Shown one piece after another: positions 3,547-9,552 of a stretch of 42,390 nt of DNA. The first letter of the stretch is position 1, and the number at the start of each line of letters is the position of its first letter. Source of the stretch: Clostridiales bacterium. Lineage in GTDB: Bacteria; Bacillota; Clostridia; Christensenellales; Pumilibacteraceae. The DNA lies in the NCBI GenBank assembly GCA_031255775.1, contig JAIRRW010000005.1:1-42390 (forward strand). Reading direction: 5' to 3'. The position numbers were made by a program, and so were the translations under genes. The notes under the pieces were generated by a model. It was not told where the DNA came from, ran no database searches, and saw only the letters and a program-made list of their open reading frames with translations.

Positions 3547-4035
3547 TTAAGAAACCGCCGCTTCGAGCGCGCCCGATTGCCGGCCGATTTGTCGGATCAG
3601 CTCGTATAAACCGTCGGTCTCATAGAGATAATAGACTTTCGTCGTTCCGTAGGTAAACGGGCCGAGAACTAAAACCGTTTCGTGACCGTTGCCGTCTTTT
3701 AGGGTGATCGCGCTGTGCCCGCCGTCATACGGACCCGCCCCGTCTTTGACAAACCTGACATCCCGAAGTAAGGTCCGGACGACCGTCTCCACCGTGGCTG
3801 TATCGCTTATGGTAAACAAAACGGGCGGCGGCCGGCCGATGTCCCAGCTCACGTCGATACTGCGTATATCCGCGTCAAAATCGCGGTATTGCGGGAAATC
3901 CGTAAACCCGATTTTGCCGGGCGTACACCTTGTTATACCAAAAATGTATGCCCCTAAACCGATTGCCCCCAAGAGTCCGACCGCAAGTAAAACTCTCAAA
4001 AGCCCGGATCTGAACGACACGCTCGCTTTTTTCAT
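3547..4035 (-). CDS. small membrane-anchored protein of unknown function
   Basis: The 162-residue product starts with a short basic segment (MKKASVSFRSG) followed by one hydrophobic helix at about residues 11-34, so it is probably held in the membrane with the rest outside; a lipobox is not seen. The remainder is a mixed alpha/beta domain with acidic and aromatic residues (for example YDGGHSAITLKDGNGHE near 105-121). I do not recognise the family. It lies between secA and prfB on the same strand, 88 nt after the secA stop. The start ATG at 4035 follows a run of nine G residues that would have to serve as the ribosome binding site, which is unusual. Confidence 0.75.
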   Translation of the reverse strand: MKKASVSFRSGLLRVLLAVGLLGAIGLGAYIFGITRCTPGKIGFTDFPQYRDFDADIRSIDVSWDIGRPPPVLFTISDTATVETVVRTLLRDVRFVKDGAGPYDGGHSAITLKDGNGHETVLVLGPFTYGTTKVYYLYETDGLYELIRQIGRQSGALEAAVS

Positions 4036-4123: not shown

Positions 4124-6847
4124 TCAGCGTTCGATATCCTTGGGGAGGCAGCAGTTTTTGTACTTTTTGCCCGAGCCACAGGGGCAGAGCTCGTTGCGGC
4201 CGACGGTGCGGGCGCTGGCGGCGACCGGGCTTTGGACGACGCGCTGGTTGCCGCGGTTTTCGATATACTCGACCTTTTGCTGCTCGCGCTGCGGGACGCG
4301 CTCGATATTGACGTGCATGAGGAGGGCGACGGTCTCCTCGTTGATCTTGTCGACCATCTCGTCAAACATTTCGAAGCCGGCGGACTTGTAGGCCATGACC
4401 GGGTCCTGGTTGGCGTAGGCCTTGAGCACGATGCCCTTTTTGAGCTGATCCATCGCGTCGATGTGGTCCATCCACTTGGCGTCGATGACGCGCAGGAGGA
4501 TGACGCGCTCGACCTCGGCAAAGTCGACGGGGGCGCCGGTCTGCGTCTCCAACGCCTTGGCGTCGGCGATCTTGGCGTCGTAATAGGCGGCGATGGCCTC
4601 GTACAGCCGATCCTTGATCTCCTCGAGCGCCAGCGTTTCCATGCGTTCCTGCGTGAAAAACTCGGGCTCGCCGGGCAGGAGCTTGCGCTCGATCTCCTTG
4701 TTTAGGGTCTCATAATCCCACTCGTCCCAGTCCAGCCGCTGGTCGGTAAAGTCGTCGACGATGGCGTCCACCTGCCCGCGAATCATTTTGAGGATCTGAT
4801 CGTGAATGTCGAGGCCCGCCAGCACCTGATTGCGCTGGCTGTACATGATGGTGCGCTGGGCGTTCATGACGTTGTCGTATTCTAAAACCTGGCGGCGGGT
4901 GGAAAAGTTGCGCCCCTCGATGTTGCGCTGGGCGTTTTCGATCTGTCTGGTCAAAAGACCTAAAGAAAACGGCGTGTCCTCGTCGACCTTAAAGCGGTCG
5001 GCGATGGCCTTCATGCGGTCGCCGCCAAACAGGCGCAGCAGCTCGTCCTCCATGCTGAGGTAAAAGACGGACGACCCGATGTCGCCCTGCCGTCCGGCGC
5101 GGCCTCTAAGCTGGTTGTCGATGCGGCGGGATTCGTGACGCTCGGTGCCGACGATCCTGAGCCCGCCGACGGCGATAACGTTTTCTTTTTCGGCGGCGAT
5201 CTCGGCTCTAAACTCGTCGTACAGCTCCTTGTACTGCCTGCGGGCGTCCAAAACGGCGCGGTCGCCGGTGCTGTAATAGGCGGTGGACGCGGAGATGAGC
5301 GCCTCCTCGACGCCCAGCTCGCGCATCTTTTTTTTGGCCATAAACTCGGCGTTGCCGCCCAGCATAATGTCGGTGCCGCGGCCGGCCATGTTGGTGGCGA
5401 TGGTGACGGCGTGGAATTTTCCGGCCTGCGCGACGATCTCGGCCTCGCGCTCGTGGTTTTTGGCGTTGAGGACGTTGTGGGGGATCTTGCGCCGTTTTAA
5501 CAGCTCGGACAGCTCCTCGCTCTTTTCGACGGTGGTGGTGCCCACCAGCACGGGCTGGCCGCGCTCGTAGCACTCGGTAATATCCTCGATGATCGCCTTG
5601 ATTTTGCCTTTTACGGTCGAGTAGATCTGATCGTTTTCGTCCACGCGCCGGGAGGGCAGGTTGGTCGGAACGGTGACGACGTCGAGGCGGTAGATGCCCT
5701 TAAACTCGTTTTCCTCGGTCTTGGCGGTGCCCGTCATGCCGCTCAGCTTTTTGTACAGGCGGAAATAGTTTTGAAAGGTGATGGTGGCCAGCGTCTTGTT
5801 TTCGCTCTGGACCCGGACGCCCTCCTTGGCCTCGATGGCCTGGTGAAGCCCGTCGCTATAGCGGCGTCCCTCCATCAGGCGGCCGGTAAACTCGTCGACG
5901 ATAATGATTTCGCCCTTGGGGTTGACGATGTAATCCTTATCGCTTTTCATGATGTAGTTGGCGCGGACGGCGTTGTTGATATAGTGGTTGGTCTCCATGT
6001 TGTCGGGGTCGGACAGGTTGTCGATCCCAAAGAACCGCTCGGCCTTTTCGACGCCCGCCTCGGTCAGGGTGACGGCCTTCTTTTTTTCGTCGAGGTCGAT
6101 GTCGTCGGGCTTTAGCCCCTTGGCGAATTTGTTGGCGGTGACGTACATCTCGCTGCTCTTGCCGCTGCGGCCGCTGATGATGAGGGGCGTCCGCGCCTCG
6201 TCGATGAGAATGGAGTCCACCTCGTCGATGATGGCAAACGACAGCGGGCGCTGCACCTTGTCGCTGTTTTGAATGACCATGTTGTCGCGGAGGTAATCAA
6301 AGCCCAGCTCGTTGTTGGTGGCGTAGGTGACGTCGCAGGCGTAGGCCGCGCGCTTGGCGGCGTTGTCCATGCCCGCGACGGCCACGCCGACGGTCAGCCC
6401 CAAAAACCGATGGATCTTGCCCATCCATTCGGCGTCGCGCTTGGCGAGGTAGTCGTTGACCGTGACGATGTGCACGCCCTCGCCGGACAGCGCGTTGAGG
6501 TACGTCGGCAGGACGGCGACCAGCGTTTTCCCCTCGCCCGTGCGCATCTCGGCGATACGCCCCTGGTGGAGCGCGATGCCGCCCAATATCTGGACGTGAA
6601 AGTGGCGCATCTCCAGCACCCGATCCGCCGCCTCGCGGACGGCGGCAAAGGCCTCGGGCAGCAGGTCGTCCAGCGTCTCGTAATTGTCCTTTAGCCGCTT
6701 TTTGAACTCGGCGGTCTTGGCCTTTAGCCGATCGTCGGACATTTTGCGGTACGAATCCTCCAGCTCGTCCACGCGCTGCGCGATCGCCTCGAGCTTTTTG
6801 ATGCTGCGCTTGTTGTCGCCGCCCTTAATAAACGATATGAGTCCCAT
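4124..6847 (-). CDS. secA: preprotein translocase ATPase SecA
   Basis: SecA is the motor that pushes unfolded preproteins through the SecYEG channel; secY is also in this window. The 907-residue protein has Walker A GEGKT at 104-108, the DEVDS DEAD-type box followed by ILIDEARTPLIISG, the preprotein-binding region, the helicase-like second nucleotide-binding domain (NMAGRGTDIMLGG, and LRGRAGRQGD), and a C-terminal zinc-binding tail CPCGSGKKYKNCC at 888-900, the SEC-C type that also binds SecB or ribosomes in other species. Length is in the longer bacterial range. The ATG at 6847 has AAAGGAG upstream. It follows pheA by 25 nt and is the fourth gene from the right of this block. Confidence 0.98.
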   Translation of the reverse strand: MGLISFIKGGDNKRSIKKLEAIAQRVDELEDSYRKMSDDRLKAKTAEFKKRLKDNYETLDDLLPEAFAAVREAADRVLEMRHFHVQILGGIALHQGRIAEMRTGEGKTLVAVLPTYLNALSGEGVHIVTVNDYLAKRDAEWMGKIHRFLGLTVGVAVAGMDNAAKRAAYACDVTYATNNELGFDYLRDNMVIQNSDKVQRPLSFAIIDEVDSILIDEARTPLIISGRSGKSSEMYVTANKFAKGLKPDDIDLDEKKKAVTLTEAGVEKAERFFGIDNLSDPDNMETNHYINNAVRANYIMKSDKDYIVNPKGEIIIVDEFTGRLMEGRRYSDGLHQAIEAKEGVRVQSENKTLATITFQNYFRLYKKLSGMTGTAKTEENEFKGIYRLDVVTVPTNLPSRRVDENDQIYSTVKGKIKAIIEDITECYERGQPVLVGTTTVEKSEELSELLKRRKIPHNVLNAKNHEREAEIVAQAGKFHAVTIATNMAGRGTDIMLGGNAEFMAKKKMRELGVEEALISASTAYYSTGDRAVLDARRQYKELYDEFRAEIAAEKENVIAVGGLRIVGTERHESRRIDNQLRGRAGRQGDIGSSVFYLSMEDELLRLFGGDRMKAIADRFKVDEDTPFSLGLLTRQIENAQRNIEGRNFSTRRQVLEYDNVMNAQRTIMYSQRNQVLAGLDIHDQILKMIRGQVDAIVDDFTDQRLDWDEWDYETLNKEIERKLLPGEPEFFTQERMETLALEEIKDRLYEAIAAYYDAKIADAKALETQTGAPVDFAEVERVILLRVIDAKWMDHIDAMDQLKKGIVLKAYANQDPVMAYKSAGFEMFDEMVDKINEETVALLMHVNIERVPQREQQKVEYIENRGNQRVVQSPVAASARTVGRNELCPCGSGKKYKNCCLPKDIER

Positions 6848-6872: not shown

Positions 6873-7658
6873 TTATTCGTACATGCCCAAAAACTTCATC
6901 AATTCCGTTCGGGCGGACAGGTCGTTTAGGATCCGCATCACGCCCTTTTTATCGGCGTCGGTCATAAACTCTAAATAGAACCGATAGCGGAACGCCGACT
7001 GCCTGCCGGGGCGCGACTCCAGCTTGTGGAGGTTGACCCCGTTTTCCGCCAGCGATCGGAGCGCCGAAAACAGCGCGCCCGGCCGGTGCCTGGCCTCAAA
7101 CATCAGGCTGACGTTTTTGCCGGAAAACCGGGGCGCGGCCTCCAGCACGATAAAGCGCGTGGCGTTGTCCTTGCGATCCTCGATATGCGCCGCCAAAACC
7201 GCCTGGCCGGGCCCCGCCCCGCGGGCGATGGCCGCCTCCTCCCCGCCCCGGATCAGCCCGAGCGCCTCGCTGGTGCTCTTGACCGGAATGAGCGTCGCGT
7301 CCTTGAGGTTTTGCCCGATATAGACGCCGCACTGCGCCAGCGCCTGCGGGTGCGAATAGACCCGTTTGATTATGGACGGATTTGCGCCTTCGTATCCGAT
7401 CAGCGCGTGCGAAATCGGCATAAAATGCTGACGGACGATATAGGCGTCGGCGGCAAAGAGCGCGTCCAGCGTCTCGGCGACGGTGCCGCCGTAGCTGTTT
7501 TCGATGGGAATGACGGCCGTATCGACCGCGCGGTCGGTCAGGAGCGCCGCCGCCCCGCCCACCGTGGCGGCGCCGGTAAACCGCGCCTCCGAAAACAGCG
7601 CGGACGCGGCGGCGTAGGTGTGGCTGCTTTCGTCGCCCAGGTATGCAACGTTTATCAT
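6873..7658 (-). CDS. pheA: prephenate dehydratase (monofunctional, with ACT domain)
   Basis: The enzyme turns prephenate into phenylpyruvate in phenylalanine synthesis. The 261-residue protein has the periplasmic-binding-like catalytic domain with PIENS at 51-55, the conserved TRF motif at 167-169 (DNATRF) whose Thr is needed for catalysis, and a C-terminal ACT domain from about 183, with GALF at 194-197 and ESRP at 214-217, the residues that bind phenylalanine for feedback inhibition. No chorismate mutase domain is fused. It begins 10 nt after the Rho-like gene and is followed by secA 25 nt on, so the three are probably one transcript; no other aromatic amino acid gene is nearby. Confidence 0.95.
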   Translation of the reverse strand: MINVAYLGDESSHTYAAASALFSEARFTGAATVGGAAALLTDRAVDTAVIPIENSYGGTVAETLDALFAADAYIVRQHFMPISHALIGYEGANPSIIKRVYSHPQALAQCGVYIGQNLKDATLIPVKSTSEALGLIRGGEEAAIARGAGPGQAVLAAHIEDRKDNATRFIVLEAAPRFSGKNVSLMFEARHRPGALFSALRSLAENGVNLHKLESRPGRQSAFRYRFYLEFMTDADKKGVMRILNDLSARTELMKFLGMYE

Positions 7659-7668
7659 TTAATATTTT

Positions 7669-9069
7669 TCACGACTTTTTTTCGCGTTTGGCTAATTCCC
7701 GAATCAGCGCCTTGTTGTCGGGGTAGCGCAAAACCACCTGCACGGCGCGTTCGTCGCCCTCCTCCTCCAAAATTCCGTTGACCTTGGCAAGCGCGAGCCG
7801 CTCGTCCTCACTCCGCTCCAGATCGGAAAACGAATAACTGCTTTTGACGTCCATACGGTACGTGCGGGTGTAGGGGTTGACCTTGAAACGGCATTCCATG
7901 TCCGCCAGATTTTTGATCTCGTAGTACACGCCGAAAAAGTTTTCGCGGTCGGCGCCCGCAATCACGGTGACGCTGCCCCCCGACTCGTACTGACGCGCCG
8001 CCGAGACGACCTCGCCGACGGCCAGGCGGCTGTCGTATTTTAGGCGGGTAATGCTGTTTAAGACCACCGCGATATTCCGTCCCACCGACGCCATCCGCCC
8101 CGCATAGGCGAGCGCCCGCCTTAAAACGACCGCGTTTTCCTCCTCGGGATCGGTAAGCGCGGTAAAGATAATGCTTTTATAGGTGTTTTGCAGGTACGCG
8201 ATCCGCTCCTCGCGCTCGTACAGGCACAGGCAGAGCACCTCGTCCGCCTGCCCGCTAAACTTGACCGAACGGTACACTTCCGCCATAAACTCGGTTTCCT
8301 CCGCGCGTCCCTCGGCGGCAAGGAGGGCAAACTGCCCCTGACAGACGGGCGTGAAAAAATCGATCAGCCTAAGGAGCGGGTGCGAATCGGGACACGCCAA
8401 ACGGATGCGCTTAAAGGGTCGAACCGGCGCCGGCGCGGACGCGGGCTCGGGCACGCCGCGCCCCTTAGTCGGCGCCATGTCCACGCCGTTGAGGGTCTCG
8501 ATATAGCACAGGCAAAAAAAGCCGACGGTCTTGAGAAACACGGCGCGTCCCTTGATAAAGTCGCCGTCCCGCAAACGGTACTGGCCGGACAGGGCGCGAA
8601 TGACGCAGACGTCGTGAATGTCACTGACAAACCGCTTGACGCGCAAAATGCCGCCCACGACGCCCGACTCGTAAACGCCCTCCACGTCCGTCCCGAGCAA
8701 AAGCTCGCCGTACTTGACGTTTTCCAAAACCGACAGCTCGTCCTCGGGCTGCAGCTTTTCGACGTCCGCCTCGTTTAGGATGGGCGTATCCTCGGAAAAA
8801 TGCTGGATCCCCCACAGCTTGTCCAGCATGGCGTTGATCAGCTCTTCCTTATTGAGCGTGGTCGCCGACTCCACCCCGATCTTTCTGCCCATCTCGCGGT
8901 TGTCGGTGACGTTGCGCGCCTCTAAATAATGACGGGACAAGCCCTTAAAAACGGGCTCGTCCTCCCGCCTCAACGTCCGCGACTGCTCGTCGGCCTGAAT
9001 CAGCTTTAACGTGCTGTTTTTAAAGGACAGCTTTTTCCTGTCCTTTAACTTGAGTTTGCTCTTTTCCAT
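7669..9069 (-). CDS. degenerate Rho-family protein lacking ATPase and RNA-binding motifs
   Basis: An uninterrupted frame encodes a 466-residue protein that aligns with transcription terminator Rho over its whole length. A Rho_N/SAP-like helical segment lies at about 60-90 (GRKIGVESATTLNKEELINA), a cold-shock-like RNA-binding fold at about 128-195, and the RecA-like core at about 225-420 (LLRLIDFFTPVCQGQ; VVLNSITRL; GGSVTVIAGA). The working residues appear lost. Walker A is AAEGRAEE at 251-258 without Lys-Thr. Walker B Asp is Asn338. The Q-loop region near 344-356 is shortened. No arginine finger is seen, and the RNP1 aromatics (GFGFL in E. coli) read VGGIL. Length, composition and upstream signals look like a working gene. 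The start at 9069 has AAAGGG before it; an earlier ATG at 9081 overlaps the -10 box. It could be a regulator, scaffold or Rho partner; termination activity of its own seems unlikely. Confidence 0.8.
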   Translation of the reverse strand: MEKSKLKLKDRKKLSFKNSTLKLIQADEQSRTLRREDEPVFKGLSRHYLEARNVTDNREMGRKIGVESATTLNKEELINAMLDKLWGIQHFSEDTPILNEADVEKLQPEDELSVLENVKYGELLLGTDVEGVYESGVVGGILRVKRFVSDIHDVCVIRALSGQYRLRDGDFIKGRAVFLKTVGFFCLCYIETLNGVDMAPTKGRGVPEPASAPAPVRPFKRIRLACPDSHPLLRLIDFFTPVCQGQFALLAAEGRAEETEFMAEVYRSVKFSGQADEVLCLCLYEREERIAYLQNTYKSIIFTALTDPEEENAVVLRRALAYAGRMASVGRNIAVVLNSITRLKYDSRLAVGEVVSAARQYESGGSVTVIAGADRENFFGVYYEIKNLADMECRFKVNPYTRTYRMDVKSSYSFSDLERSEDERLALAKVNGILEEEGDERAVQVVLRYPDNKALIRELAKREKKS

Positions 9070-9079
9070 AATCCCTTTC

Positions 9080-9108
9080 ATTTTACCATAATCAATGAAA
9101 AAAGTAAA
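9080..9108 (-). promoter_or_regulatory. promoter of the Rho-like gene
   Basis: Minus-strand TTTACT (9103-9108), 17 nt, TAAAAT (9080-9085). The -10 lies 10 nt before the ATG at 9069, so the leader from this promoter would be only a few bases. The same 12-base string TTTACTTTTTTC occurs at the -35 of the pckA promoter. Confidence 0.6.
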
Positions 9109-9118
9109 TCAAAATGCG

Positions 9119-9489
9119 CCCGTTGCTGACGCAAACGGGCTATCGGCCAAACGCGAATGCCAAAGGCATTCGGCCGAACTTTTACGGTGTCCGAGGGGAA
9201 AAAGTGTCATTTTTCCCCTCTCCCGATTTAAGTCGCACAAAATGCCGCTTACGCTTGCATTTTGGCGAGATATAAGAGGACAAAAGCGGCAATATAATAT
9301 CCCAACTCATACAGGACTTTTGCCTACTTTTTCTAAAAGTAGGTTGTTGCGGGGGTCTGGGGACACAATCAACAGTGTCCCCAGATTCTTTTTGGTTCTT
9401 TTTGGGATATACAAAAAGAACAATGCCCATGCCCCGCCAACGCGGGGGGATATAAGAAAAAGAGCCCGTGTCTGCGGCGGTGAGCAGAC
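9119..9489. other. hairpin array between rplQ and the Rho-like gene
   Basis: This gene-free stretch holds a series of inverted repeats: near 9119-9140 (GCCCGTT.. with GCAAACGGGC), 9144-9176 (CGGCC..GAATGCC-AAA-GGCATTC..GGCCG), 9193-9220 (11-bp stem GAGGGGAAAAA/TTTTTCCCCTC), 9238-9264 (CAAAATGC/GCATTTTG), 9312-9333 (CCTACTTTT/AAAAGTAGG), 9357-9384 (CTGGGGACAC/GTGTCCCCAG), 9433-9448 (CCCCGC/GCGGGG) and 9470-9489 (GTCTGC/GCAGAC). Open frames here on either strand lack a ribosome binding site and are not supported. Part of the stretch is a dispersed repeat (9302-9504). It may be a composite of inserted repeats or a structured leader. Confidence 0.7.
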
Positions 9490-9504
9490 TTTCCTCCCCG
9501 GAAA
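9302..9504 (+). repeat. dispersed intergenic repeat, copy 1
   Basis: Two blocks recur, in the same order and on the opposite strand, at 42193-42051. Block A reads CATACAGGACTTTTGCCTA here and CATACGGGACTTTTGCCTA there. Block B starts CCGTGTCTGCGGC in both and continues to a CTTTYCTCCC..GGAAA stretch. The sequence between the blocks is diverged and differs in length (about 135 against 75 nt), though GTGTCCCC is kept. Confidence 0.65.
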
Positions 9505-9512
9505 GATAGGGG

Positions 9513-9542
9513 AAAAAAAGAGCCCACCGCTTAGGTGAACTC
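9513..9542 (-). terminator. Rho-independent terminator after rplQ
   Basis: On the minus strand GAGTTCACC pairs with GGTGGGCTC (9 bp with two G-U pairs) around the loop TAAGC, followed by seven T. It lies 10 nt past the rplQ stop and closes the ribosomal cluster. Confidence 0.85.
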
Positions 9543-9552
9543 TTAGTCGTGT

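Follow-up and report, generated by a model that had tools for sequence, protein, structure and literature searches.

Introduction

Rho is regarded as a motor, and it is debated whether any of its functions survives once ATP-driven translocation is lost. The ATPase activity of Rho is abolished when the Walker lysines, the Walker B aspartate, and the arginine finger are missing, and the contacts of its pore with RNA are abolished when the Q- and R-loops are. For the Rho of M. tuberculosis, a mechanism of termination uncoupled from the motor has been put forward (PMC4499133); this Rho retains its ATPase and an ATP-dependent motor, whereas the protein described here has lost the residues themselves. 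The rho-less Bacilli, which lose purine bias (PMC13323073), are likewise lineages without Rho-dependent termination, but they have no rho gene, whereas the family studied here keeps a motor-less one. Rho2, a short-form Rho paralogue (NCBIfam NF041509), is likewise a divergent Rho-family protein, recognized as its own type. Within the open-access papers searched, we found no description of an inactive, degenerate, or pseudo-Rho, in keeping with an earlier sequence-only reading of this DNA, whose author knew of no described family of the kind.

The gene under study lies in a stretch of 42,390 nucleotides from a Clostridiales bacterium (contig JAIRRW010000005.1), referred to as a whole as the window. 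Comparison with its relatives demonstrates that in this bacterial family the motor residues have been lost and the Rho fold, the N-terminal domains, and the reading frame retained; we designate the protein pseudo-Rho. Labels denote families (f), genera (g), genomes (G), and Rho proteins (L), with f1 the family of the window.

The Window Gene Descends from Rho

The pseudo-rho gene occupies positions 7669..9069 on the minus strand and encodes 466 amino acids from an ATG at 9069. The longest frame (7669-9081) has 470 codons from an upstream ATG, but the ATG at 9069 aligns with the starts of the relatives (M5 is invariant in the alignment) and has AAAGGG just upstream, so the 466-codon frame first read from the sequence is the right one. 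Residue numbers given here follow the 470-residue form (ATG at 9081), in which Asn338 of the shorter form becomes N342.

Sequence comparison and structure prediction together indicate that the window gene is a true Rho descendant. The protein is matched by the Rho profiles NF006886 (E 2.7e-24; 85.7 bits against a cut-off of 315) and TIGR00767 (E 6.2e-21; 74.7 bits against a cut-off of 509), in both cases below the equivalog score, and the NCBIfam Rho models cover residues 52-348. Pfam contributes PF07497 (Rho_RNA_bind) alone, at residues 143-201 with an E value of 0.0016, under its cut-off, and Rho chains in the PDB give sequence matches with E values down to 5.9e-13. The Rho2 profile NF041509 scores 70.2 bits, far from its cut-off of 628, and the protein is no Rho2-like paralogue, because it is the sole Rho relative found in its genome.

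An AlphaFold2 model, for which the window protein and its relatives supplied 59 sequences, has a pLDDT of 88.2 and a pTM of 0.82. The best 50 Foldseek matches listed for it are all Rho (E 2.3e-22), and VIA structural comparison aligns 329 residues to Rho 7oqh_D with a Z score of 33.0 and an rmsd of 2.6. The next-best fold, ATP synthase, reaches a Z of about 22, and the F1/V-type and FliI-type ATPases stand roughly 11 Z units under Rho in the structural listing and are absent from the profile matches; a better fit to another ATPase family, which the sequence-only reading had named as grounds for abandoning its view, was not found in these comparisons. A shorter relative from genus g8 folds too (pLDDT 86.8), and its best structural matches listed are Rho. 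The protein is thus homologous along its length, as first proposed, to the Rhos of E. coli, M. tuberculosis, T. thermophilus, and T. maritima, with about 21-22% identity to the solved structures on structural alignment. It has the domain order of Rho: a Rho_N/SAP-like helical domain (8800..8928, minus strand, approximately residues 52-94; the Rho profile begins at residue 52), a cold-shock-fold RNA-binding domain (CSD; 8479..8694, minus strand, approximately residues 130-201, resting on PF07497 and on beta strands in the model), and a RecA-like core with C-terminal helices (7672..8436, minus strand, approximately residues 216-470), predicted not to work as an ATPase.

Loss of Motor and RNA-Site Residues

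Residues were called by aligning the protein to the Rho of E. coli and to 16 canonical Rhos from its own order. Canonical Rho has the Walker A lysine, the Walker B aspartate, the Q-loop, the R-loop lysine, the arginine fingers, and the primary-site aromatics, unlike the window protein. The former Walker A reads AEGRAEETE (8290..8316, minus strand), with K181 replaced by R259 and K184 by E262, and the former Walker B reads IAVVLNSIT (8047..8073, minus strand), with D265 replaced by N342, so that the degenerate Walker A and the aspartate-to-asparagine change noted from the sequence both stand. The Q-loop is lost as well, by outright deletion of columns 278-290 (E. coli numbering) rather than by the shortening first described. 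The R-loop K326, part of the secondary RNA site, is absent, and the arginine fingers are indeed missing, R353 being gapped and R366 replaced by F418.

All three aromatics of the primary RNA site are gone, as had been read: F62 is gapped, F64 is I145, and Y80 is C159. The loss is extensive and not total, because T185 (T263), the catalytic glutamate E211 (E289, lost in most f1 relatives), and R66 (R147, the single primary-site residue retained) survive. To say that the RNA-binding residues have been lost was accordingly too strong: R66 is kept, conservation among the f1 proteins is highest in the N-terminal RNA-binding domains, and in family f4 the site is intact. The net charge of the CSD is slightly lower in the pseudo-Rhos, which does not clearly speak either for RNA binding or against it; with F62, F64, and Y80 lost in addition, RNA binding by the window protein is not assured.

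Distribution within the Family

We compared 74 genomes of the family, from 18 genera, most of the compared genomes being metagenome assemblies. A search of genome contigs with a single protein gave no match; a profile built on proteins of the family itself located a pseudo-Rho in 37 of the 74 genomes, distributed over 12 genera (one of which, g8, contains Candidatus Protoclostridium), with the frame intact in most of the 37. The f1 relatives tabulated all lack the Walker A GK[ST], the Q-loop, and the arginine finger. Normal Walker motifs in relatives would have pointed to a sequencing error; since the relatives share the losses, both an error and a lone oddity were rejected. In three f1 genomes (contigs G016:C37, G066:C9, and G021:C11) the profile matches cross stop codons, and these are possible true pseudogenes or mis-extended matches.

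No second Rho was found in the genome of the window (89.8% complete), and no canonical Rho above the Rho cut-off in any of the 74 family genomes; weaker core-only matches, considered as a second rho, proved in those tested to be the beta subunit of F1 ATP synthase. The earlier suggestion that the protein modulates a true Rho is therefore disfavored. The gene is cleanly missing from genera g18, g2, g5, g4, g16, and g7, where pheA-secA or secA stays, and pseudo-rho is therefore dispensable.

Motor-less Rhos Elsewhere in the Order

An order-wide sample yielded a Rho above the cut-off in 289 of 396 genomes. Intermediate Rhos, with catalytic residues eroded to varying degrees, occur in f4 (genera g21, g79, g100, and g122), f15 (g32, g128, and g134), f29, f9, f30, and one f6 genome. 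Walker A is absent from the f4 genera g100 and g21, the latter also lacking the arginine finger in 4/4; g79 keeps the GK, but E211 and both arginine fingers are missing from each of its seven genomes; in G220 and G300 the residues are changed only in part. The primary RNA site of f4 is intact (DGYGFLR...DIYVS) beside the dead motor. A class-wide sample of 156 genomes contained no clear intermediates outside the order, its two weak best matches (G527 and G554) scoring where other ATPases do.

The dead forms elsewhere in the order occupy the canonical rho locus. In f15, the canonical gene of G038 has both flanks in common with the dead genes of G211, G223, G234, G255, G283, G356, and G372, and G038 belongs to the same genus as these; in f4, the flanks of canonical G182 match those of dead G027, G129, G252, and G345. 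The dead genes of these two families are therefore the resident rho and not duplicates. The Rho tree requires no fewer than six switches between the canonical and the dead state, a count that is only a guide because several branches are long. The motor has been removed repeatedly in the same neighborhood where relatives hold a canonical rho, and the remainder has been preserved by selection, so that comparison of these genes directly tests whether Rho can function without its motor.

One same-locus series, in g32 of f15, runs from canonical L071 to the heavily eroded L156, L153, L148, L152, L145, L146, and L157, and is well suited to working out the steps by which the motor was lost. The motor-dead f4 proteins L301, L299, and L139 score about 414-427 bits, above the NF006886 cut-off of 315, and would therefore be labeled functional Rho by an automatic pipeline; standard annotation is misleading here, since this equivalog calls several dead f4 proteins "Rho."

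Selection on the Dead Cores

Selection was assessed by pairwise codon models, with likelihood ratio tests (LRT) against omega = 1; the evidence comes from other genera because none of the relatives of the window gene is near enough for a dN/dS estimate. Two g8 pairs with usable dS (about 1-1.9) gave omega values of 0.058-0.065 for the N domain and 0.079-0.100 for the dead core, with LRT values over 100. For the dead cores of f4 (dS up to 2) omega was 0.011-0.053, similar to canonical controls. The dead cores of the relatives are thus under purifying selection (omega 0.01-0.10), far from the value near one that would have spoken against the sequence-only reading; together with the intact 466-codon frame, this agrees with its statement that the gene is no random pseudogene.

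Identities across the SAP, CSD, and core regions show an inversion of constraint in f1. In canonical Rho the core is the most conserved (0.25/0.38/0.63), whereas the corresponding values are 0.66/0.53/0.43 for the g8 pseudo-Rhos and 0.48/0.40/0.30 for those of g1, g12, and g15 combined; here conservation is highest in the N-terminal RNA-binding domains, the SAP-like domain foremost, and the core is the fastest-changing.

The main rival to a retained function is slow decay, in which rho became dispensable in the order, its motor was lost, and the surviving genes are stages toward complete loss that serve no important purpose. Outright loss has occurred repeatedly, which speaks for limited importance; erosion is graded across the order, and the branches are very long. 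Against a decaying relic stand the frames that remain intact in most of the 37 genomes, the low omega values even of dead cores, the invariant N-terminal motifs of the pseudo-Rhos, and the full fold of the modeled window and g8 proteins, and we consider decay unlikely. A purine-bias test for lost Rho termination was null, with coding purine fractions of 0.538 in canonical and 0.528 in f1 pseudo-Rho genomes (p 0.30), and is low in power because silent-site bias is small even in canonical genomes and genes per genome are few.

A Possible Motor-Free Function

Because motor-less Rhos are recurrent and preserved by selection, they probably have a new, motor-free job on RNA. The reading we lean toward for the window protein is a Rho-derived pseudo-ATPase whose fold is kept as an ATP-independent factor that binds RNA or RNA polymerase. 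Such a protein would be unable to translocate along RNA; it may be kept for RNA binding through its SAP-like and cold-shock domains, possibly also for binding RNA polymerase, and could act as a non-motor transcription or RNA factor that occupies or tethers nascent RNA, or traps or pauses RNA polymerase without ATP. The M. tuberculosis precedent and the retention of NusG speak for this reading, whereas the dispensability of the gene within f1 and the null purine-bias test count against it. Whether the pattern amounts to a widespread class of regulators, with the motor Rho repeatedly converted in place to an ATP-independent RNA- or polymerase-binding factor within one gut-bacterial order, we regard as evenly balanced; if true, Rho possesses a conserved function that needs no motor and that selection can maintain by itself. 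That the dead RecA ring instead serves as a scaffold or partner subunit holding NusG, NusA, RNA polymerase, or another protein, with RNA binding secondary, is improbable: the core is folded and still under purifying selection, and NusG was present in 13 of 13 genomes tested, but the core is the fastest-changing domain in f1.

Genomic Context

Ten nucleotides downstream of pseudo-rho, the close coupling already noted from the sequence, lies pheA (prephenate dehydratase; 6873..7658, minus strand), followed by secA (4124..6847, minus strand). The order pseudo-rho-(pheA)-secA is nearly always conserved in f1, with gaps mostly of -55 to +14 nt, and the canonical rho of four sister families does not adjoin secA. 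A terminator-like hairpin behind rplQ (9518..9544, minus strand) lies between pseudo-rho and the rpoA operon; pseudo-rho therefore probably begins its own transcript, with pheA and then secA. A likely promoter of its own, TTTACT-17-TAAAAT with an extended -10 ending at 9080, spans 9073..9108 (minus strand) together with the Shine-Dalgarno AAAGGG, as a consensus match only. On these signals pseudo-rho, pheA, and secA are probably on one transcript starting at pseudo-rho, and the proposed factor would be the product of an operon shared with secA.

Cis-acting regulation, in which the protein binds the mRNA of its own operon and controls pheA-secA expression, would explain why the gene keeps its place just before secA: adjacency to (pheA)-secA is seen at almost every f1 locus that carries it, while the neighbors on its upstream side vary. 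We nevertheless give this explanation little credence: gene order may be mere inheritance, secA-prfB being conserved too; the dead Rhos of f4 and f15 are not at this secA-linked position; and a 5' hairpin is confined to the window gene. The hairpin, an 11-bp stem (TTAAAGGACAG-loop-CTGTCCTTTAA) at 9020-9048 on the minus strand, lies near codons 7-16, and the stability of the 5' fold is 4.3 sd above codon shuffles; the hairpin is absent from the relatives and was rejected as a conserved regulatory element.

Other features of the surrounding DNA include strong inverted repeats in the long gap between rplQ and pseudo-rho (9095-9540), such as a 16-bp stem at 9351-9390; a plus-strand open reading frame within this gap encodes no protein recognizable by Pfam or NCBIfam. 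A 162-residue open reading frame at 3547-4035, between secA and prfB, is without a Pfam or NCBIfam match. Ribosomal protein L17 (9553-10062) has 169 residues, and the NCBIfam L17 model matches it in two pieces, suggesting an insertion.
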